From Deltaproteobacteria bacterium (GTDB taxonomy: Bacteria > Myxococcota_A > Polyangia > JAAYKL01), in the NCBI GenBank assembly GCA_029565915.1, contig JAKQNG010000296.1, forward strand, positions 1 to 64,000: DNA of 64,000 nt, read 5' to 3'. The notes beneath the pieces are model-generated. The model did no database searches. It was not told the origin of the DNA and saw only the letters and a program-made list of their open reading frames with translations. The position numbers and the translations under genes were made by a program. This document shows, in pieces, positions 4,656 to 16,036 of this stretch. How positions within the stretch are numbered: the first letter of the stretch is position 1; the number at the start of each line of letters is the position of its first letter.

Positions 4656-5512
4656 GGCGGACCTCCTTGCGCCAGCAACTCCCGGGCGATGGAGCGCGCC
4701 GTTTCGAGGAGTGCCGGACATTCCCCGGGGACGAGGGTTCCTTCCGCGCCGGCCCGGGCGATGGCCGCAGAAAAGGGAATGCGACCGACGATCCGCAGCC
4801 GGTGCGCTTTCGCGAAGCCATCCACATCCGCATCGCACAGGTCGCACCGGTTGATCACGACAAGGGGTGTGCGTCCCAGTGCCGCGCACAGGTTGACGGC
4901 TGCGGCCAGATCGTGGAGCCCGGACGGCGTGGGCTCGGTGATCAGGATGACCCGCTCGACCGCCTCCACCACCGCGGCCACCGGACAACCGGTTCCCGGC
5001 GGCGCATCCACGACGAGGAGCGCATCCGGTGACTGTCGCACGACCGTGGCCAGCAGGTCTTCAATCAGCGGCTTCGCCCGGGCTTCGCCCACGTCCAGTC
5101 GACCGGCAAAAAATCGCAGCTCCTGCGCCGTGCCTTCTTCGATGACGCCGATCCGACGGCGGTGTTCGACGAGGGCGTGTTCGCTGCAGACCAGCAGGCA
5201 GGCGCCGCAGCCGTGGCAGAGACGATCAAAGACGTGCACGGTCTGATCGAAGACGGTGATGGCGGAAAAGGCGCAGATGGACTGGCAGTTGCCGCAGCCC
5301 GAGCAGGACACCCCCACCGGGGCGGGGATGGACACGTGGGACGATGTGAGCTCATCGATCCGGGGGTGGAGGAACAGGTCGCCGTCCGGTGCTTCCACGT
5401 CCGCATCGACATAGGCCACCGTGTGCCCTTCGTCGGCGAACACGCCGGCCAGGGTGGTGGCGAGCAGCGTTTTTCCGGCACCACCCTTGCCGCTGGCGAC
5501 GGCTACTTTCAT
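4652..5512 (-). CDS. MinD/Mrp-family P-loop ATPase with inserted ferredoxin domain (paralogue)
   Basis: MKVAVASGKGGAGKTLLATTL, CSGCGNCQSIC, CHGCGACLLVC; ATG at 5512. Confidence 0.88.
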   Translation of the reverse strand: MKVAVASGKGGAGKTLLATTLAGVFADEGHTVAYVDADVEAPDGDLFLHPRIDELTSSHVSIPAPVGVSCSGCGNCQSICAFSAITVFDQTVHVFDRLCHGCGACLLVCSEHALVEHRRRIGVIEEGTAQELRFFAGRLDVGEARAKPLIEDLLATVVRQSPDALLVVDAPPGTGCPVAAVVEAVERVILITEPTPSGLHDLAAAVNLCAALGRTPLVVINRCDLCDADVDGFAKAHRLRIVGRIPFSAAIARAGAEGTLVPGECPALLETARSIARELLAQGGPP

Positions 5513-6270
5513 CGGGGAATTTTCAGGGTGACCCGCCGCAGCCCGCCGGAACGGTATTCTTCGAGGGCCTTTGCCGCGGTGAGCCCCGGCGGCGCAGACC
5601 ACATGGCGATGTGCATGCCTTCAAGGGCCATGGACGCGTCCGGTCCGAAGCGCCCCGAGATCACTGCACGCACGCCCTGCCGGTGCAGGAGGGATGCGGC
5701 GCCGGTACCCGCTCCATGGGCGGCCAGGGCGGCCTCGTTCTTCAGAGTCCGCACGCCATTGCTGTCCACAATCAGAAAGGCGGGGGCCCGGCCGAATCGC
5801 TCGTCCATGGCCGCCCCCAGTCCCTTGTCGTCACAGACCGCCACAGCCACGGCGCCTTCTTCCAGTGCGAGCCCGGAGGCCTGATGGTGACCACCGCAGC
5901 TGTCCGCGTGGTCGTGGGCGCAGGGCACGATTCCCTGCAGGTGACCTTTCATCCATGCGTCCAGCGCATCGCCGACGCGGCCGGATGCGCCGGTGGCGAC
6001 CTCAATGCCCGACTGGTTGAACATGGCCACCGCCCGGGGCCCCATCCCGCCGGCAATAATGACGTTGGCGCCGGTGGAAGCGATGAACGCGGGTACCGCA
6101 CCCGGGGTATGGGCGGCGAAGTGGGGATTGTCGACCACCTGATGAGAAACAATCCGATCCCCGTCTGCTTCGACGAGAACAAACGCGGGACAGCGGCCGA
6201 AGTGGGCGGATACAGCACCTTCGAGACCGCGTCGATCATCTGCGGCAATGGCAATCCGTCGCACCGTCAT
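5509..6270 (-). CDS. Tandem-domain NifX/NifB-like (dinitrogenase iron-molybdenum cofactor family) protein
   Basis: Two consecutive NifX-like domains (IAIAADD...SAHFGRCPAFVLV and VAVAVCDD...DERFGRAPAFLIV). Confidence 0.82.
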   Translation of the reverse strand: MTVRRIAIAADDRRGLEGAVSAHFGRCPAFVLVEADGDRIVSHQVVDNPHFAAHTPGAVPAFIASTGANVIIAGGMGPRAVAMFNQSGIEVATGASGRVGDALDAWMKGHLQGIVPCAHDHADSCGGHHQASGLALEEGAVAVAVCDDKGLGAAMDERFGRAPAFLIVDSNGVRTLKNEAALAAHGAGTGAASLLHRQGVRAVISGRFGPDASMALEGMHIAMWSAPPGLTAAKALEEYRSGGLRRVTLKIPR

Positions 6271-6931: not shown

Positions 6932-6942
6932 ATGTGCCGATG

Positions 6943-8274
6943 TCAGGCGAGGCCCAGGTCCTTCATGCGGCGCCAGAGGGTGGTGCGGCTGATGCCCAGG
7001 ATCCGGGCGGCGCGGGAGCGGTTCCACAATACCTTGTCGAGCACGGCCCGCAGCTGTCCGGCCTCCGTCGTTTCGTCCGGCGTTTCCGCTGAACGGATGG
7101 CCGACACGGGGCGACCGGCCGCGGACAGCACCTCCGGCGGCAGGCAGGTCGTGTCAAAGGTCGCGCCCCGGCACAGGACCGCCGCCCGCTCCAGGATATT
7201 GCGCAGCTCCCGCACGTTGCCCGGATAGTCGTAGTCGTACAGCAGGCGCATGGTGCGGGAAGCGAAGGCCGGAACCGGTCGGCCGATGCGTGCGCAGATC
7301 CGCTTCATCAGGTGTTCCACCAGCAGAGGGATGTCCTCCCGTCGCTCCCGCAGGGGCGGGATGTCCATCGTCACCACGCGGATGCGGTAGTAGAGGTCTT
7401 CCCGGAATTCACCGTCCTGCACCATCTTTTCGAGGTTCCGGTTGGTGGCGCACACCAGGCGCACATCCGCCACGTGGAGTCGCGAATCCCCGAGGGGCTG
7501 GTATTCCCCTTCTTCCAGCACCCGCAGCAGCTTCACCTGGAACGCGGGGGAGATGTCGCCGATTTCATCGAGGAAGAGGGTGCCCCGGTCCGCCTGGGCG
7601 AATCGCCCCACCCGGCTCGCCACCGCGCCGGTGAACGCGCCCTTCGCGTGGCCGAACAGCTCCGACTCCAGCAGCGTGTCCGGCAGGGCGCCGCAGTTCA
7701 CCCGGATGAACGGGCCGCTCCTGCGCAAGGACAGGTTGTGGATGGCGCCGGCCACCAGCTCCTTGCCGGTTCCGCTGGGCCCGCGCACGAGCACCGGGGC
7801 GTCGGACTGGGCCACCTGGGGAATGGTGGCGAAGATCTCCTGCATGGCCCCGCTCGCGCCGACCATGTCCTCAAAAATGTGGCGGTTGGACAGCTCGCTG
7901 CGCAGCAGCTCCACGTCGCTCACATCCCGGAATATCTCCACGCCGCCCACCATGCGCCCCTCCTTGTCCCGCAGGATGGCCGTGGACACTTCGATGGGCA
8001 CCGCGTCCATGTCCGCATTGAGCACATCCACCCGCACGTCCCGCAGGGGAATGCCCGTTTCCAGGGTGTGGCGCAGGGCGCACCGGTTCTGGCAGATATC
8101 CGCCCGGAAGACCTCGTGGCACCGCCGTCCCAGAGCGTCCTGTACCGGAATGCCGGTAATCCGCGCCGCCGCCGCGTTGAACGAGGTGATGCGGAAGTGC
8201 TCGTCCACCGTGAACACCCCGTCGTTGATGCTGTCGAAAATCAGTGGAAAAAGCTGCGTCGTATTCTCACCCAT
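6943..8274 (-). CDS. Sigma54-dependent transcriptional activator (PAS + AAA+ + Fis HTH)
   Basis: PAS-like N-terminus, GPSGTGKELVA, ESELFGHAKGAFTGAV (intact GAFTGA), C-terminal Fis-type HTH. Confidence 0.95.
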   Translation of the reverse strand: MGENTTQLFPLIFDSINDGVFTVDEHFRITSFNAAAARITGIPVQDALGRRCHEVFRADICQNRCALRHTLETGIPLRDVRVDVLNADMDAVPIEVSTAILRDKEGRMVGGVEIFRDVSDVELLRSELSNRHIFEDMVGASGAMQEIFATIPQVAQSDAPVLVRGPSGTGKELVAGAIHNLSLRRSGPFIRVNCGALPDTLLESELFGHAKGAFTGAVASRVGRFAQADRGTLFLDEIGDISPAFQVKLLRVLEEGEYQPLGDSRLHVADVRLVCATNRNLEKMVQDGEFREDLYYRIRVVTMDIPPLRERREDIPLLVEHLMKRICARIGRPVPAFASRTMRLLYDYDYPGNVRELRNILERAAVLCRGATFDTTCLPPEVLSAAGRPVSAIRSAETPDETTEAGQLRAVLDKVLWNRSRAARILGISRTTLWRRMKDLGLA

Positions 8275-8316: not shown

Positions 8317-8355
8317 TGAAACATACTGTAACACAATTTGAAACGGTTTGTTCCA
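8317..8355. promoter_or_regulatory. Putative tandem activator-binding palindromes
   Basis: TGAAAC-ATACT-GTAACA (8317-8333) and TGAAAC-GGTTT-GTTCCA (8339-8355), 22 bp apart; overlaps TGTTT-N5-AAACA (8309-8323). Confidence 0.45.
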
Positions 8356-8383
8356 ATCGATTCTGCTGCATCTTCCTGCGTGC

Positions 8384-8399
8384 GGGCATGGTATTTGCT
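8384..8399 (+). promoter_or_regulatory. Putative sigma54 promoter upstream of the VKOR-DsbA gene
   Basis: GGGCATG-GTAT-TTGCT with exact GG-N10-GC spacing. Confidence 0.5.
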
Positions 8400-8416
8400 T
8401 TTTCGAAAAGTCAGCC

Positions 8417-9610
8417 ATGAATGATATCCACATGAATTCCATATCCGTCCCTGTGCCGCGCCGCCGGATCGCCATCATGATTCTGCTGTGCGTCGCGGGC
8501 CTTGTCGTGTCCGGCGAGCTGCTCCTTGTCCACTACCGCACCCACACGGATCCCGCATTCCATTCCCTGTGCGCGGTCAACGACGCGGTGAACTGCGAAA
8601 CCGTCGCCCTGTCTCCCTGGTCCGTCGCCCTGGGCATTCCCGTGTGCATCTGGGGCCTCATCGGATACAGCACGCTGCTGGCGCTGCTCCTGTGGAGCAT
8701 CCGTCAGCCGGAGGAACGGTCGATGCCCGCCGCAACGCTGGCCGTTACACTGGCCTTTCTGGCCGTGTCCGCCGCCCTCGCGTGGATATCGTTCACCATC
8801 ATCGATTCCCTGTGCCTGCTGTGCATGACCACCTACGCCGTCAACCTGGCCATGACCGGCATTTCCGTCTCCCGGGTGGCGCTCAGGGACGACGGACTGT
8901 GGACGCTGGTGCGGCGCGATCTGGGCGTTGTGCGCAGCGGGCCGCTGTTCTGGACGATCCTGGCGGTGACGGCCGTTGCCGCGCTGGTGACCGTGCGCGT
9001 GTCCCTGCCCACCTGGTGGGATTCATCCGGGGATCAGGCCACCGGGCAGGCGGACGCCGTGCGCGAAGGAGAAACCGCCCATTTCGTCGGCGCGGCGGAT
9101 GCGCTGCTCACGATTGTCGAATACAGCGACTACCAGTGCCCGTTCTGCCGGATCGCCCACCGCCGGGTGCGCAGGCTGCTGGAGTCCCATGGGGATCGGG
9201 TGAAGCTGATCCACCGCCAGTTTCCCCTGGACGACGCCTGCAATCCTCTGGTGAAGCGGCGCTTCCATCCCTTTGCGTGCCATTTCGCCCTGGCCGCGGA
9301 GTGCGCCGGGGAACAGGGCCGCTTCTGGCAGATGAACGACGCCCTGTTTGGTGCCCACGACACGCACAAATCCGAAGACATCGACGTCTTTGCCATGGCC
9401 GCGGACATCGGCGTGGACGTGGAACGGTTCCGCACCTGCATGCAGGATCCGGCCACCCGGGCCCGGTTGCGGGAAGATATCGACAAGGGCCTCGCCCTGG
9501 GCCTGACCGGAACGCCGACATTTGTGGTGGACGATAAACCGCTGCGCAAAGCCCTGTCTGCGGAGCTCATCGAATCGCTGCTTTCTGAACGAAGCCGAAA
9601 AGCGCCCTGA
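8417..9610 (+). CDS. Vitamin K epoxide reductase domain-DsbA-like thioredoxin fusion protein
   Basis: VKOR-like membrane domain (CAVNDAVNCE...DSLCLLCMTTY) and DsbA-like domain (YSDYQCPFCRIAH...GLTGTPTFVV). Confidence 0.88.
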   Translation: MNDIHMNSISVPVPRRRIAIMILLCVAGLVVSGELLLVHYRTHTDPAFHSLCAVNDAVNCETVALSPWSVALGIPVCIWGLIGYSTLLALLLWSIRQPEERSMPAATLAVTLAFLAVSAALAWISFTIIDSLCLLCMTTYAVNLAMTGISVSRVALRDDGLWTLVRRDLGVVRSGPLFWTILAVTAVAALVTVRVSLPTWWDSSGDQATGQADAVREGETAHFVGAADALLTIVEYSDYQCPFCRIAHRRVRRLLESHGDRVKLIHRQFPLDDACNPLVKRRFHPFACHFALAAECAGEQGRFWQMNDALFGAHDTHKSEDIDVFAMAADIGVDVERFRTCMQDPATRARLREDIDKGLALGLTGTPTFVVDDKPLRKALSAELIESLLSERSRKAP

Positions 9611-9636: not shown

Positions 9637-9975
9637 CTACTGATTTCTGAGTGCGTCGAGTTGCATTCTGAGCAGCGGGAGGCTCTCAACGACAATCTGC
9701 CAGATGATTTCTATATCGATACCGGAATAGTCATGGACAATCCGATTGCGCATACCAGCCATCTGATGCCAGGGAAGAGATGCATGCCGGCTGATAAAAT
9801 CCGATGGCATCTGACGGGCCGCCTCTCCGATAATTTCGATATTCCGGACCACCGCGTCGACGGTCCTGTCATCCGCCAGGAACTGCTCCCGGGTCATCCC
9901 CTCGCAGTAGCGACCAATCCGTTCCATCGCGATGTTCATGTCGTCGATGAGAATATGCGGATCCCGCTCAGACAT
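9637..9975 (-). CDS. hepT: HepT-like (DUF86) toxin
   Basis: RNRIVHDY matches the RX4HXY HEPN motif; adjacent to a MntA-like NTase; internal ATG at 9975. Confidence 0.85.
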   Translation of the reverse strand: MSERDPHILIDDMNIAMERIGRYCEGMTREQFLADDRTVDAVVRNIEIIGEAARQMPSDFISRHASLPWHQMAGMRNRIVHDYSGIDIEIIWQIVVESLPLLRMQLDALRNQ

Positions 9976-10267
9976 CCTGCCGCTCCAGTTCAATCTGCCT
10001 GAGCAGACGGCCGCGAAGGGCCCGGGTTGAAACCAGATCGACCGGATGTCCGAGCAAGGCCTCGAGTTCATCACCCAGTTCCACCATGCGAAGACCGATT
10101 TCGGGTTTCACATCAACGAGTATGTCAATGTCGCTGTGTTCCCCTGCCTCGCCGCGAACGACGGAACCGAACAGCCACATGGCGCGCAGCGGAAACTGTT
10201 TCTGCAGTCGCGGTTTTTCACTGCGGAGTACTCTCAGCACATCTTCTGTGTTCATGGAAACCGGCAT
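9968..10267 (-). CDS. mntA: MntA-like minimal nucleotidyltransferase antitoxin
   Basis: GSVVRGEAGEHSDIDILVD matches GSX10DXD; overlaps hepT by 8 bp. Confidence 0.85.
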   Translation of the reverse strand: MPVSMNTEDVLRVLRSEKPRLQKQFPLRAMWLFGSVVRGEAGEHSDIDILVDVKPEIGLRMVELGDELEALLGHPVDLVSTRALRGRLLRQIELERQDV

Positions 10268-10438: not shown

Positions 10439-11731
10439 TCAGGCGTGGTCGAGTTCGGCGGTGGCCGCAATGGCGGCAATGGTGCCGTCCGCCACGGCGG
10501 TGGTGATCTGGCGGTACTTCTTGTGCACGATGTCGCCGGCGGCAAATACGTGGGGAATACCGGTGTGCATCGATTCGTCCACGACGAGATATCCCCATTC
10601 ATCCGTGGTCAGTTCATCGCCGAACCGATCGAGGTTGGGCTTCATGCCCACAAAGACAAATACGCCATCGCAGGCAATGTCGTGCCGCTCCTGCGTCTTC
10701 AGGTTTTCCACGCGCACGGCGTTTACGGTTTCCGCGGATGCGAGGAAGGCCCGGGGTTCGTGGGACCAGAGCACCTGTATGCCGGGATGGTCGAGGACCT
10801 TCTGCGCGGAGACGGCATTGGCCTGAAACCGGTCGAACTGGTGGACCATGGTGATGCGCGTGGCGAACCGGGCGATGAACAGGGCTTCCTCCACGGCGGA
10901 GTTGCCGCCGCCGATGACCACCGCGTGCTTTCCTTCAAAATACTTGGCGTCGCAGGTGGCGCAGTACGACACGCCCTTTCCCCGGAACTCCCGCTCCCCC
11001 GGGATGTTGAGCAGCCGCGGGGAGGTGCCCGTGGCCAGGATGATTTTTTCTGCGAGGATGGTTTCAAGGCCGTCCACGACGATTTCCCGTCGGTGGAGGT
11101 CGACGCGGGTGACATCGACGGCGGAGCGGAACTGCGCGCCGGCGGCCTTTGCCTGTTCGGCCATGTAGTGGGCCAGCAGGTACCCCGGCTGGGGCGTCAC
11201 GAACCCGGGGTAGTTGGACACCTGGTGGGTGATGCTGACATTGCCGCCGGGCAGGGCGGTGTCGATGACCAGGGTATCGCGCTTCGCCTGGGCCGCATAG
11301 ATCGCCGCGGCCAGCCCCGCCGGTCCACCGCCGATGATGGCCACATCCACCCGGGTGTCCGTCGAAGGTGCAGCGGCAGCCAGCTCCGCCGCCCGCTGGT
11401 CGGGCAGCAGCGCGTGGAGGTTGCGGGTGAGGTCGGCCCGCCGGATGCCCCCCGTCAGCGTGTCACCGGTCCGTTCGCCGTTGCGGAAAAAAATAACGGT
11501 GGGTGAGCCGGTAATGCCAAGGGAAGTGGCCAGCTCCCGGTTTTCCTGCCGGAAAATTTTAATAAAGGTCACGTCGTTGCCGTAGATGCGGGCCAGGGAT
11601 TCGTACTTGGCGGCCAGGGCTTCGCAGGGCGGGCATTCGGTGGAATAAAAATCCACCACAACGGGGCGCCCGGATTCCAGCACTTCCTTCTGCCAGTCGG
11701 CCTGACCGATGGTCAAAATGATATCTGACAT
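10439..11731 (-). CDS. Thioredoxin-thioredoxin reductase fusion protein
   Basis: N-terminal Trx domain with CPPC, then FAD GGGPAGLAAAIYAAQ, CATCDAKYFEGK, VIGGGNSAVEEAL, GDIVHKKYRQ. Confidence 0.92.
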   Translation of the reverse strand: MSDIILTIGQADWQKEVLESGRPVVVDFYSTECPPCEALAAKYESLARIYGNDVTFIKIFRQENRELATSLGITGSPTVIFFRNGERTGDTLTGGIRRADLTRNLHALLPDQRAAELAAAAPSTDTRVDVAIIGGGPAGLAAAIYAAQAKRDTLVIDTALPGGNVSITHQVSNYPGFVTPQPGYLLAHYMAEQAKAAGAQFRSAVDVTRVDLHRREIVVDGLETILAEKIILATGTSPRLLNIPGEREFRGKGVSYCATCDAKYFEGKHAVVIGGGNSAVEEALFIARFATRITMVHQFDRFQANAVSAQKVLDHPGIQVLWSHEPRAFLASAETVNAVRVENLKTQERHDIACDGVFVFVGMKPNLDRFGDELTTDEWGYLVVDESMHTGIPHVFAAGDIVHKKYRQITTAVADGTIAAIAATAELDHA

Positions 11732-11734
11732 GGC

Positions 11735-13066
11735 TCAATCCTCTTCCTTCTTGCCGCGCACGCGGCCGTCTTCTTCAAAGTAAACGGGAAACCCGGCTGC
11801 GGCGATGTCCGCCACGGGCCGGCAGTCCGGAGAATGCAGGTGGCCGTGGGTGTTTCTGGCCACCGCTCCGCAGCCGCCGCCGCAGACGAGCGCCGCGGCA
11901 CAGCTGCGACAGGACTCGATGGCGAGGACGTCCCGGTCCTGCCAGAGGGCGATGGCCGCTTCGTCCCGCTGCACCACCGGGAAAAATGTGCCCAGCTCTT
12001 CGCCGGGCTTTCCCACCGTGGCTGTGCAGGAGAAGATGCGGCCCAGGTGGTCGAAGGCCCATTCGGTTTTGCAGCCCGGGCAGCTGTCGAAGACGGGGTC
12101 CGGCAGCTCACCGGTCCGGGCCAGCGTGCGGACGAAATGAAACGACGGCGCGTGGAACGCCATCACGTGGGGGTGCGCCGCGATGATGTCGGCCAACTCC
12201 CTGGCCAGCTCCAGCCTCGACAGGATGGCCGTTGCGCGGTGCTGGCAGGCGTGGAGCTCGTAGTTGCGCCCCAGCTGGGTTTTGAACAGGGGGTCCGCGG
12301 TCCATCCCCGGTCAATGGCGAACCGCGCCAGGTCGGGCAGGTTGTCGAGGTTGTCCCGGTCCACCACCATCCGCAGGTTGACGGGAATCCTTGCCGCGAG
12401 CAGCTGGTCCACGCCGCGGACGATCTTTTCAAAGGTGGGCCCGCCGTCCTTGCGCGGCCGCCGTCGGTTGTGGAGGTCCTCGGTGCCGTCCAGGGTAACC
12501 TGCACCTCCCGGATGAAACTGTCTTGCAGCACGTCCAGGTATTCTTCGACAAAGTAGCCGTTGGTCACCACCGCGGTGGTGGTGTGCCGGCGGGTCGCGC
12601 CCGCAAGGAAAAAGGTCACCGCATCCCTTGCGGATGCGCCGGGCAGCAGGGGCTCTCCGCCAAAAAGGGTGAAGTACCGGCGGCGTCCCGCAAAGGCGTG
12701 TTCCACGTAGTCGAACAGGGCGTCGATGACCGGCCGCTGATCACCACCGCCGCCCTGCAGGTAGTCCGCCTGGTAGCAGTAGTCGCAGTCGAAGTTGCAC
12801 GCGTAGCCGGGCACGTAGAAGAGCTGCACCTCGTCGGTGTCGCGGGCATCAAGGAATTCGAGATATCGGCGGCGGAACTGGGCTTCCTCCTCCGGTCCGA
12901 AGGACGGGTCGTCGCTGGACGCGCGCCACGTTTCCATCTCCGCGGCGCTGAGCAGGTGGGCGGTTCCCGTGAGGGCATTGGCAATCAGGCAGGACCCGTC
13001 GTTGCCCACGGGCGCCACCATGTCGTACTTCGACCGGCGCAGCGGCATTTCTGCATCCTTTCGCAA
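11735..13066 (-). CDS. Radical SAM/SPASM domain protein (peptide-modifying type)
   Basis: CNFDCDYCYQ (CxxxCxxC), LFGGEPLL, C-terminal SPASM-like Cys pattern (CPGCKTEW...CRSCAAALVCGGGCG...C); alternative start at 13048. Confidence 0.9.
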   Translation of the reverse strand: MRKDAEMPLRRSKYDMVAPVGNDGSCLIANALTGTAHLLSAAEMETWRASSDDPSFGPEEEAQFRRRYLEFLDARDTDEVQLFYVPGYACNFDCDYCYQADYLQGGGGDQRPVIDALFDYVEHAFAGRRRYFTLFGGEPLLPGASARDAVTFFLAGATRRHTTTAVVTNGYFVEEYLDVLQDSFIREVQVTLDGTEDLHNRRRPRKDGGPTFEKIVRGVDQLLAARIPVNLRMVVDRDNLDNLPDLARFAIDRGWTADPLFKTQLGRNYELHACQHRATAILSRLELARELADIIAAHPHVMAFHAPSFHFVRTLARTGELPDPVFDSCPGCKTEWAFDHLGRIFSCTATVGKPGEELGTFFPVVQRDEAAIALWQDRDVLAIESCRSCAAALVCGGGCGAVARNTHGHLHSPDCRPVADIAAAGFPVYFEEDGRVRGKKEED

Positions 13067-13105
13067 AAAAATCTCGGTGAAACCGGCGCGGGGCCTCCGG
13101 CGGCG

Positions 13106-13255
13106 TCAGTCGTGGCAGCCGGCGACGATTTTTGAATTCTTGGCGCAGCACTGGGCGCGGGAACCGGCCTTGTCCGCTTTGCCCGACGGGGTCTTGTCGC
13201 GTTCGCGCTGGTTGCGGGCCGTTTTGTCGGTTGGTTCCTTCGTGAGTTTTTTCAT
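13106..13255 (-). CDS. 49-aa peptide MKKLTKEPTDKTARNQRERDKTPSGKADKAGSRAQCCAKNSKIVAGCHD; candidate substrate of the adjacent radical SAM enzyme
   Basis: Hand-translated; absent from the ORF track; ATG overlaps the TGA of the methyltransferase gene (ATGA); AGGAG 8 nt upstream; C-terminal CC-X9-C. Confidence 0.75.
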   Translation of the reverse strand: MKKLTKEPTDKTARNQRERDKTPSGKADKAGSRAQCCAKNSKIVAGCHD

Positions 13256-13935
13256 CGGTTGTTCTCCTGTGGGTCAGAGGGTCGGCAGCCGCAGCCACAG
13301 CCGGGCCGCACGCCGCAGACGGTAAAACTGGACACTTCAATTTTTCCCTTCGGGTAGGGGTCGCTTTCTTCGAGGATGCGGATGTCGGCAAACCCGGCGA
13401 GTTCCAGGGTGGCGAGGTATTCGTTGCGGGTCACTGCCCCGGCCCAGCATTCGGCCACGGCCGCCGGGTCGTTGCGGTACTCCTGCGGCACGGGCGCGGA
13501 CGAATAAATGTCGCTCACCGCAAATCGGCCACCGGGTTTCAGGATGCGTCGGATTTCGCGCCACACGGCGGGTTTGTCCGTGGCGTGGTTGATGGTGCAG
13601 TTGGAAATCACGAGATCGGCCACACCGTCGGGGAGGGGCAGTTTTTCGATGGAGGAAGCGATGAACTCCACGTTGGATGCGCCCGTTTTCTGTGCGGTGC
13701 GGCGGGCGACCGCGAGCATGCCGTCCGCCGTGTCGATGCCGAAGACCTTTCCGGTGGGGCCCACGGCTTGCGCCATGCGCAGCACGTCGGTGCCCCGGCC
13801 GCTGCCGATGTCCACGCAGGTTTCGCCCTCCTGCGCCTTTGCGAAATTCAGCGCACCGCCGCAGGAGAGGCAGCAGGATGACGCGGCCAGGCCGCTGTAG
13901 CGCTCGTCAATTTTCTGTCGGATGGATTCGTTCAT
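13252..13935 (-). CDS. ArsM-like SAM-dependent methyltransferase
   Basis: DIGSGRGTD SAM site; SNCTINHATDKPAVWREIRRILKPGGRFAVSDIYSS and AECWAGAV resemble arsenite methyltransferases; start at 13935. Confidence 0.82.
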   Translation of the reverse strand: MNESIRQKIDERYSGLAASSCCLSCGGALNFAKAQEGETCVDIGSGRGTDVLRMAQAVGPTGKVFGIDTADGMLAVARRTAQKTGASNVEFIASSIEKLPLPDGVADLVISNCTINHATDKPAVWREIRRILKPGGRFAVSDIYSSAPVPQEYRNDPAAVAECWAGAVTRNEYLATLELAGFADIRILEESDPYPKGKIEVSSFTVCGVRPGCGCGCRPSDPQENNR

Positions 13936-14010: not shown

Positions 14011-14958
14011 TTATTCGATAATGATGGATTCGAAACAGGCGATGTTGGTTTCGATGCGGAAATTGGACTGGCTGGTATGGCGCTCCGCGTGGAACACGTC
14101 CATGGGGTAGGAATTGCCCGGTTCGATGCCCAGCTCGCCGGCCTTGGCGTCGAAGTCGATGGTTCCCTCGTAGGGCCAGTGGAGACCGCCCAGATCGAGG
14201 GCGATGCGGTTGTTGACGAAAATCCACAGGTCGTCGTCGCCCCGGAAGGTGAACACCTGGCCTTCTTCGTACTGGAACTCCAGATGGATTTCGGTGGTGA
14301 ACAGGAAGTTGCGCAGCTCGCCGTCGTCGTCCACCTGGCCGGACTCGGCGCCGAACCCTTCGCTGTTGCCGATGGGGAAGAAGGTGCTGTCGTCATAGAC
14401 AAAGGAACCGCTGCCGCTGTCTTCGAGGGTGAGCGTATCCTCGATGCGGACGTTCACGCCGTCCACGTCCGTGTACCACTGGGCAAAGCTGGAAGCGCTG
14501 TCCCACATGGGGATACTGCCCCAGGCAGGGCCCGTGGGGGTGCTGGTGGCGTTTTCGAGAAAACCGCCGTTGGGACAGGTTTCGCCGCAGGCGGGGTCCG
14601 TGGTCTGGTACTCTCCCTGCAACTGGTTGAATTCGGGCTTGCGGCTCGCGCCGAGGACCGGTCGCACCATGCCCTGGCATGGGCCCCAGCCGAGGTCCGC
14701 CCGCTCGAAGTCCACGTGGTCCGAGGTGAAGTCCCGGTAGACCACCTGCAGGGTGCTCTCGCAGTCGCCGTCCGAATCGCTGTCCGAGTCCGAATCGCTG
14801 TCCGAGTCGGAGTCGGAATCCGAATCGGAGTCGCTGTCCGCATCCCCGGGGCCGTCGTCGCCCGGCCGCTCGGTGCCGCCGGTTTCGCAGGACGTGCCGG
14901 CCAGGCAGAGGAGTGCGCACGCAAGCGCGATCAGATGAAATGAGTGGTTGGTTGTCAT
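14011..14958 (-). CDS. Fibro-slime domain lipoprotein with (Asp-Ser)n linker
   Basis: Lipobox LAGTSCE, D-A-(DS)n-D-G-D linker, [25 protein letters not shown] fibro-slime signature; start at 14958. Confidence 0.85.
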   Translation of the reverse strand: MTTNHSFHLIALACALLCLAGTSCETGGTERPGDDGPGDADSDSDSDSDSDSDSDSDSDSDSDGDCESTLQVVYRDFTSDHVDFERADLGWGPCQGMVRPVLGASRKPEFNQLQGEYQTTDPACGETCPNGGFLENATSTPTGPAWGSIPMWDSASSFAQWYTDVDGVNVRIEDTLTLEDSGSGSFVYDDSTFFPIGNSEGFGAESGQVDDDGELRNFLFTTEIHLEFQYEEGQVFTFRGDDDLWIFVNNRIALDLGGLHWPYEGTIDFDAKAGELGIEPGNSYPMDVFHAERHTSQSNFRIETNIACFESIIIE

Positions 14959-14977
14959 GAGAACTCCTGATGGCCGG

Positions 14978-15865
14978 TTATTCCACCGGCGGGACAAAGC
15001 ATTCGATGGTGGTCTCGATGCGGAAGTTGGATTCGAGGGTGTGGCGCTCCGCGTGGAACACGTCAAAATCGTAGGTGTTGCCGGGCGTGATGCCCAGGGT
15101 GTTGGCCATGTCGTCAAAGTCGATGATGCCTTCCTTCGGTTCGTGGGTGCCGCCGAGGTCGAGGGCCAGCACGCCGTTCACGAAGATCCACAGGTCGTCG
15201 TCGCCTCTGAAGGTGAAGGTTTCGCCACCCACATATTCGAAGGCGGAGTGGATTTCGGTGGTGAACAGGAAATTGCGCTGTTCGTCATCATTGTCGAGCT
15301 GGCCGTCCTCTGCGCCGAAGCCTTCGTCGAGACCCAGCGGAAAGAAGCTGCTGTCGGAAAAGACATACAGGCCGTTGTCCTGTTCTTCGAGGATGATGCC
15401 CTTTTCGATGGCGATGTTGGTGCCGTCCACATCCCGGTACCAGTCGTTGAAATTGTCCGGTGTGGGGTCGCCCAAGTCAGCGGGCCAGTCGTTAATGTCG
15501 TAGCAGGTGTCGTTGGGGTGGACCCAGCAGGCGTCGTCATCGTCGTAGACCGGATTCTTGTCGCTGTCGAGCTGGGGTCCGAGCAGTCCGCGGATGACCG
15601 CGTTTCCGGGGTTCTCGATTTCGAAGTCGCTGTGACTCGCCTTGAAATCCCGGAAGGTGACGGGGAGGATGCCGCAGTCTGAGTTGATCAGTTCCGGATC
15701 GTCCACGATGCCGTTGCCGTCCGGGTCAATGTCGCCGTCGCTGTCAGAATCGCTGTCCGCATCGCTGTCGCCGTCGCCGCCGGGGGGTGGATTGGCATTG
15801 TCCGTATTTGAACAGGCCATCAGCAGGGCGCAGATGAAAAACGCGAAGAATGGTTTTTGTGTCAT
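14978..15865 (-). CDS. Fibro-slime domain lipoprotein (tandem paralogue)
   Basis: Lipobox [20 protein letters not shown] linker, [25 protein letters not shown]; start at 15865. Confidence 0.85.
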
Positions 15866-16036
15866 GGCATGTCTCCTTGGGGTAATCAATCGGTACAAAG
15901 TTAATCCATTTTTATTATATCTGCATTGAATTCCAGCCGGGGATTCTGTTCGAAAAGATGCGCGAAATGAGCAGAAATGGCAACCGGGGACGGGTTTCGT
16001 TCGAGTTTCACAATGACCGCATCCGGGCGGACTGGG

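Follow-up and report, generated by a model that had tools for sequence, protein, structure and literature searches.

Within a 64,000-nucleotide stretch from a Deltaproteobacteria bacterium (Myxococcota_A, Polyangia, JAAYKL01 in the GTDB lineage; NCBI GenBank assembly GCA_029565915.1, contig JAKQNG010000296.1, positions 1 to 64,000), hereafter the window, four genes follow each other on the minus strand, the second of them encoding a small cysteine peptide that is central to what follows. The first (13252-13935) specifies an ArsM-like S-adenosylmethionine (SAM) methyltransferase of 227 amino acids from its ATG, or 246 if a TTG start is used. Its stop and the start of the peptide gene (13106-13255; 49 amino acids, MKKLTKEPTDKTARNQRERDKTPSGKADKAGSRAQCCAKNSKIVAGCHD) overlap as ATGA at 13255-13252, with AGGAG directly 5′ of the peptide ATG. 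After a gap of 57 bp (ATG start) or 39 bp (TTG start) comes the gene for a radical SAM/SPASM enzyme (11735-13048; 437 amino acids from the ATG, 443 from a TTG at 13066), and 3 bp separate its stop from the start of a gene for fused thioredoxin and thioredoxin reductase (10439-11731; 430 amino acids). An earlier note on this DNA had described four co-directional genes with near-zero spacing and a peptide with three C-terminal cysteines; both descriptions are accurate, and the cysteines are exactly three (36, 37 and 47).

The peptide consists of a variable lysine-rich N-terminal part and an invariant 16-residue tail, AQCCAKxSxxxxGCHD. The tail (13106-13156, minus strand; AQCCAKNSKIVAGCHD-stop) is the predicted core and site of modification, on the evidence of a peptide alignment and of 108 distinct DNA sequences. 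Across loci the peptide ranges from about 31 to 60 residues, a natural form of 31 being MKSLVKKTRKGQVKQAQCCAKQSQIIAGCHD. The N-terminal part often starts MKSL(V/I)KK, and the tail reads AQCC(A/S/T)Kx(S/T)xxxxGCHD-stop, thus holding a vicinal Cys-Cys, a Lys, a Ser and a C-terminal Gly-Cys-His-Asp in which CX1D is a candidate thioether site. Its length is fixed (51 bases) in 116 loci with these 108 distinct sequences, among which codon positions 1 and 2 are unchanged at nine residues of the tail, against a pairwise difference of 0.50 at silent third positions. Change confined to silent codon positions means that the tail is translated and under strong selection. This codon test is conditional in that the collecting pattern demanded most tail residues. 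What carries it is the saturation of the silent sites together with the loci reached by profile; those fetched through a radical SAM enzyme or peptide profile gave no other tail types. The conserved CC...C core that the earlier note had singled out beforehand, as the feature whose lack in homologous loci would tell against its proposal, is there. A chance open reading frame is ruled out by the recurrence of the peptide, invariant tail included, at the equivalent position of more than 110 further loci. No TGA was found in any core, which tells against a selenopeptide among these; all 108 distinct cores have TGC or TGT at the Cys codons, where the collecting pattern required Cys and would have missed a divergent selenocysteine form elsewhere. 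The peptide has no match to any Pfam or NCBIfam family, and 25 peptide homologues gave only scattered weak ones. Some peptides have an extra Cys-Cys ahead of the core, and that of locus L146 (ending at 4877, minus strand) has a doubled AQCC, MKTLIKKKSAAQCCATAQCCAKISSIVAGCHD, and so offers a natural experiment on which Cys-Cys pair is the important one.

How faithfully does the peptide keep its company? Six of the 59 genomes searched, the window's own excluded, carry the cassette, each with the peptide gene between those for the methyltransferase and the radical SAM enzyme (G009 is cut at a contig edge). Scanning an alignment of the radical SAM enzyme over one genome per GTDB species gave 278 relatives. 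The best 80, which were examined, are from metagenome-assembled genomes of Bacteroidota, Ignavibacteriota, Spirochaetota and Myxococcota, and in these the peptide adjoins the methyltransferase and/or the radical SAM gene wherever the sequence is available, i.e. not cut by a contig edge. Loci L064, L080 and L099 are cut at the radical SAM gene; the methyltransferase and peptide of L064 and L099 were located elsewhere in the same genomes, and a search of the genome sequence available for L080 gave no good methyltransferase match. At the split locus L069/L101 the methyltransferase and peptide genes are on another contig. Pieces of the cassette, judging from L064, L099 and L069, are therefore separable on the chromosome, yet are kept together in the genome.

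An independent test was provided by a profile built from the peptide alone and searched against whole genomes. Bacteroidota yielded 5 positive genomes out of 297, the window's phylum 13 out of 284 and Spirochaetota 35 out of 247; in the same 297 Bacteroidota genomes a radical SAM enzyme profile scored above 660 bits in exactly the five peptide-positive ones, the next best being 201 bits. All 36 loci fetched via the peptide profile have the methyltransferase and radical SAM genes adjoining or close, and 33 have the thioredoxin-thioredoxin reductase; the other three are L167 and L168, on contigs of about 3.4 kb, and L151, where none is present within the 10 kb examined. Since the peptide searches relied on the Cys-rich motif or its profile, strongly diverged peptides would escape them. 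Gene order varies, some Spirochaetota having reductase, methyltransferase, peptide, radical SAM enzyme, while the set is kept, as a single copy in nearly all genomes. The tree of the radical SAM enzyme roughly tracks phyla, some exceptions apart, and the family is thus probably old rather than recently spread; PLSDB holds no plasmid match for the cassette at E 1e-40. Co-occurrence in genome neighbourhoods, which the earlier note had proposed as a check, is borne out, the four genes being a real conserved unit in four phyla.

The radical SAM enzyme has CX3CX2C (C84/C88/C91) and a complete set of seven SPASM cysteines (C323-X12-G-X4-C341; C380-X2-C383-X5-C389-X3-C393; C409), all of them invariant in its alignment and in 79 homologues, with C268 as an additional invariant cysteine. 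It thus combines the complete Cys motifs of a SPASM maturase with a conserved precursor-like peptide encoded next door. For all 20 of the enzymes tested the best NCBIfam models are CefB, TIGR04463, PapB, Clo7bot and geopeptide maturases, and the nearest solved structure is that of CteB (5wgg), a maturase that forms thioethers, by sequence (E 7.6e-17) and by fold (E 1.5e-15, TM-score 0.63, nearly full length). By these comparisons the enzyme groups with peptide maturases, and not with a non-peptide clade, the outcome that the earlier note had named as damaging to its proposal. The predicted structure has strands at 9-13, 20-24 and 29-33 followed by helices at 35-43 and 52-71, in the model the strand-strand-strand-helix-helix order that is expected of a leader-binding domain.

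The kinship is distant, with scores of 89-103 bits against cut-offs of 340-600 (PapB, TIGR04463, CefB), below the curated threshold of each of these ranthipeptide families. Of the ranthipeptide systems, SCIFF with its maturase CteB is like the cassette in having a short cysteine peptide beside a SPASM enzyme whose N-terminal domain resembles a leader-binding one, and in that the peptide is invariant and housekeeping-like. It is unlike it in that the SCIFF core has six cysteines rather than three and an unrelated sequence, in the cassette enzyme being far below the SCIFF maturase cut-off, and in the constant presence here of an ArsM-like methyltransferase and a thioredoxin-thioredoxin reductase. 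Though PapB, which makes freyrasin, is among the nearest profiles for 20 of the 20 enzymes and takes CX1D, and the cassette peptide ends Cys-His-Asp, this peptide lacks CX3D repeats and its enzyme scores 89 bits against a cut-off of 340. CefB and TIGR04463, maturases of cysteine-rich ribosomally synthesized and post-translationally modified peptides (RiPPs), are the best-scoring models, yet the scores are about 100 bits where the cut-offs stand at 600 and 525; we know of no ArsM or thioredoxin reductase partner for either.

Sactipeptides and ranthipeptides likewise pair a radical SAM enzyme with a cysteine peptide, and with Cys-peptide maturases as the nearest models one may ask whether the product is a secreted antimicrobial RiPP, a bacteriocin. 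We give this hardly any credence. Competitive toxins diversify, whereas this core is near-identical across phyla, and the recurrent neighbours of the cassette include no exporter, peptidase or immunity gene. A frozen core, near-universal single copy and no recurrent exporter together argue against a competitive toxin.

What we consider probable, with due reserve, is that the cassette makes a housekeeping-type RiPP, a cysteine peptide whose place is inside the cell and whose role is that of a small thiol cofactor or carrier. An intracellular site is suggested by the lack of any recurrent core gene for a protease or an exporter. The variable N-terminal part would serve as leader, docking on the beta-beta-beta-alpha-alpha domain with which the radical SAM enzyme begins, and that enzyme would modify the invariant tail AQCCxKxSxxxxGCHD, most plausibly by joining a Cys to a residue close by in a thioether. 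That the enzyme modifies this peptide is itself predicted, from the gene pairing and from similarity to maturases. The first candidate is a bond from the last Cys to the C-terminal Asp, in Cys-His-Asp. PapB, a related maturase, joins Cys to the Asp beta-carbon and tolerates 0-6 residues between the two (Cys-Xn-Asp), one included (PMC9413430). Such a thioether would leave the Cys-Cys dithiol free, presumably to be kept reduced by the dedicated thioredoxin-thioredoxin reductase, while the ArsM-like enzyme may methylate a soft element held on the peptide thiols, or the peptide itself. In the putative reductant a thioredoxin (CPPC) is fused N-terminally to an NADPH thioredoxin reductase (CATC; Pfam Thioredoxin and Pyr_redox_2); it scores 313.7 bits with TIGR01292, below the cut-off of 343, and its homologues have CPPC (63/74) or CAPC (11/74) and, without exception, YCATCD (74/74).

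Several points weigh against this. The radical SAM enzyme is so far below every curated family cut-off that the type of bond cannot be carried over from a relative. Its structural model, made from a 20-row alignment, is of middling confidence (predicted local distance difference test score, pLDDT, 75) and is poor in the SPASM region. At L151 the want of a reductase within 10 kb suggests that this component may not be strictly essential in cis. The extreme invariance of the whole tail would fit an unmodified binding partner too. Is the peptide, then, modified at all? It could be a small redox or regulatory partner, for instance an electron relay from the thioredoxin domain to the radical SAM/SPASM clusters or to the methyltransferase, with the radical SAM enzyme acting on another substrate. 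Strong conservation of the full 16 residues, beyond the candidate acceptor residues, and the nearly constant proximity of a dedicated thioredoxin-thioredoxin reductase agree with that. However, the enzyme is closest to maturases of precursor peptides, whose usual substrate is the product of the adjacent peptide gene, and we regard an unmodified partner as unlikely.

The methyltransferase directs attention to metalloids. It is of the ArsM fold family, shortened, and scores 204 bits with NCBIfam PRK11873 (cut-off 263) and 92 bits with the DVU_1556 methyltransferase model. In an alignment with the solved arsenic methyltransferase 4kw7, Cys25, Cys113 and Cys163 fall at Cys72, Cys174 and Cys224, the residues by which ArsM (CmArsM) holds As(III). 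Cys21, 22, 25, 40, 113 and 163 are kept in 67-68 of 68 cassette homologues, the putative As(III)-binding three in 68 of 68. ArsM proteins take As(III)-thiol complexes as substrates and are able to use thioredoxin and its reductase, and ArsD binds As(III) via Cys12-Cys13-Cys18. The peptide, modified or not, might accordingly be a ribosomally made trithiol ligand for As(III), Sb, Te, Se or Hg in glutathione's stead, loading the ArsM-like methyltransferase with the thioredoxin-thioredoxin reductase as reductant.

Genomic context speaks on both sides of such a metalloid device. At the Spirochaetota locus L144 the cassette methyltransferase and radical SAM genes are among arsR, a gene for a thioredoxin-like lipoprotein and ccdA, beside arsC and acr3. 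This locus (L144:1-8230, genome G643) has a divergent peptide gene, a degraded thioredoxin-thioredoxin reductase remnant at 868-1345 and an intact copy at 6935-8230. In four Spirochaetota loci a gene for a protein like MbdU, a metal-binding selenoprotein, and presumably DUF5714, is adjacent to or near that for the methyltransferase. With the L144 genes as queries, however, the flanks of the other approximately 119 of some 120 loci contain no acr3, arsC or arsR homologue of that type, and the context does not support a general role in arsenic resistance. Further, the cassette methyltransferases form one clade on a long branch apart from canonical ArsM (support 100/99), and outside L144 they are not in ars operons. 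A canonical ArsM above cut-off is present in 7 of 15 genomes tested, the window's among them, and not in the other 8; that of the window's genome adjoins genes for an ArsR-type regulator and a permease (neighbours named by eye). The earlier note's coupling of the ArsM-like enzyme to metalloid chemistry consequently stands in part: the cysteine triad and the L144 island favour it, while the flanks elsewhere, in which such ars homologues were not found, and the separate canonical ArsM do not. A simple ars-operon gene is disfavoured, given ars context only at L144 and that separate ArsM. A metalloid device as such we hold to be possible, though doubtful. It is compatible with a cofactor, and both can be true.

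An ArsM-like enzyme adjoining a radical SAM enzyme also recalls the ArsM/ArsS type of arsenosugar or organoarsenical pathway, here a very improbable explanation. By profile the radical SAM enzyme is a SPASM peptide maturase; among its NCBIfam matches listed there is no ArsS model, peptide maturases being the best of them. In the same family of genomes there is in addition a separate 622-residue protein (L177:1-1866, minus strand, genome G003) that unites an ArsM-like methyltransferase with a radical SAM domain and is probably an arsenosugar fusion of ArsM and ArsS. ArsM/ArsS systems have, to our knowledge, no conserved cysteine peptide, and the type of radical SAM enzyme led us to reject this pathway. 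ArsM-related selenoprotein systems (NF047649, NF041536/7) and the DVU_1556 methyltransferase family likewise have an ArsM-like methyltransferase; in contrast to them no cassette tail found has selenocysteine, and the cassette methyltransferase scores below their cut-offs. PMC13188914 lists a radical SAM selenoprotein, TrsS, as well as ArsM-fusion selenoproteins.

Other neighbours recur. DUF1847 proteins are encoded in 24 loci, often between the radical SAM and the reductase genes, and together with a zinc-ribbon protein, DUF302 (9 loci) and DUF6132 they are mostly a feature of Bacteroidota. The zinc-ribbon protein, short and IS1595-related, is near the cassette in 13 loci, including L027, L040, L050, L056, L061 and L066; it resembles the N-terminus of IS1595 transposases, has no transposase domain, is recurrently encoded upstream of the methyltransferase gene and divergently from it, and is perhaps a regulator. 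A gene for a MarR-type regulator, with a homologue in 14 loci, is directly 5′ of the methyltransferase gene in several Spirochaetota and Myxococcota loci. In the window a HepT RNase/MntA nucleotidyltransferase pair resembling a type VII toxin-antitoxin (9637-10267, minus strand) is directly downstream of the reductase gene, and beyond it (8348-9610, plus strand) is a gene for a membrane enzyme that forms disulfides, VKOR with a DsbA-like thioredoxin domain fused to it; other DsbA-like proteins are encoded close to the cassette in L016 and L023. About 4 kb past the reductase end is a NifX/Nitro_FeMo-Co-like stretch (5872-6270, minus strand), and such genes are also near the cassette in L053, L093, L100 and L144. 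On the methyltransferase side two adjoining lipoprotein-like genes (14011-15898, minus strand) specify fibro-slime (PA14-like) domains and Ser-Asp-rich repeats. PADLOC matched the cassette only at the level of generic superfamilies (pVip for the radical SAM enzyme, mad2 for the methyltransferase), and a defence system was discarded.

The earlier note did not recognise the four-gene combination as a characterised pathway, and family libraries and literature agree. Neither the peptide nor the radical SAM enzyme is described by a family in Pfam, NCBIfam or PADLOC, and no account of the gene set or tail motif was found in the literature searched, two papers on thio(seleno)oxazole RiPPs and on selenoprotein neighbourhoods being outside its scope. 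While pairs of a radical SAM enzyme and a cysteine peptide are already known, what is new is that a pair with an invariant core has an ArsM-type methyltransferase and a thioredoxin-thioredoxin reductase fusion as constant partners. Recurrence in several phyla without a family or literature match gives it the look of an undescribed peptide-cofactor or metalloid-handling system. A more specific proposal, tentative and well short of an even bet, is that the radical-SAM-modified CC...CHD peptide carries a soft element, or else a methyl group, which it holds for or passes to its dedicated methyltransferase, and that it is recycled by the thioredoxin-thioredoxin reductase, which would make it an encoded substitute for a small-molecule thiol.

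The peptide is small enough for synthesis or co-expression, and the reaction of the radical SAM enzyme and the acceptor of the methyl group are directly testable. In most RiPP families with a radical SAM enzyme the core is variable and the product serves export or competition; a core frozen over four phyla, with fixed partners and no recurrent exporter, points instead to a cofactor-like role, as with pyrroloquinoline quinone (PQQ), mycofactocin and SCIFF.

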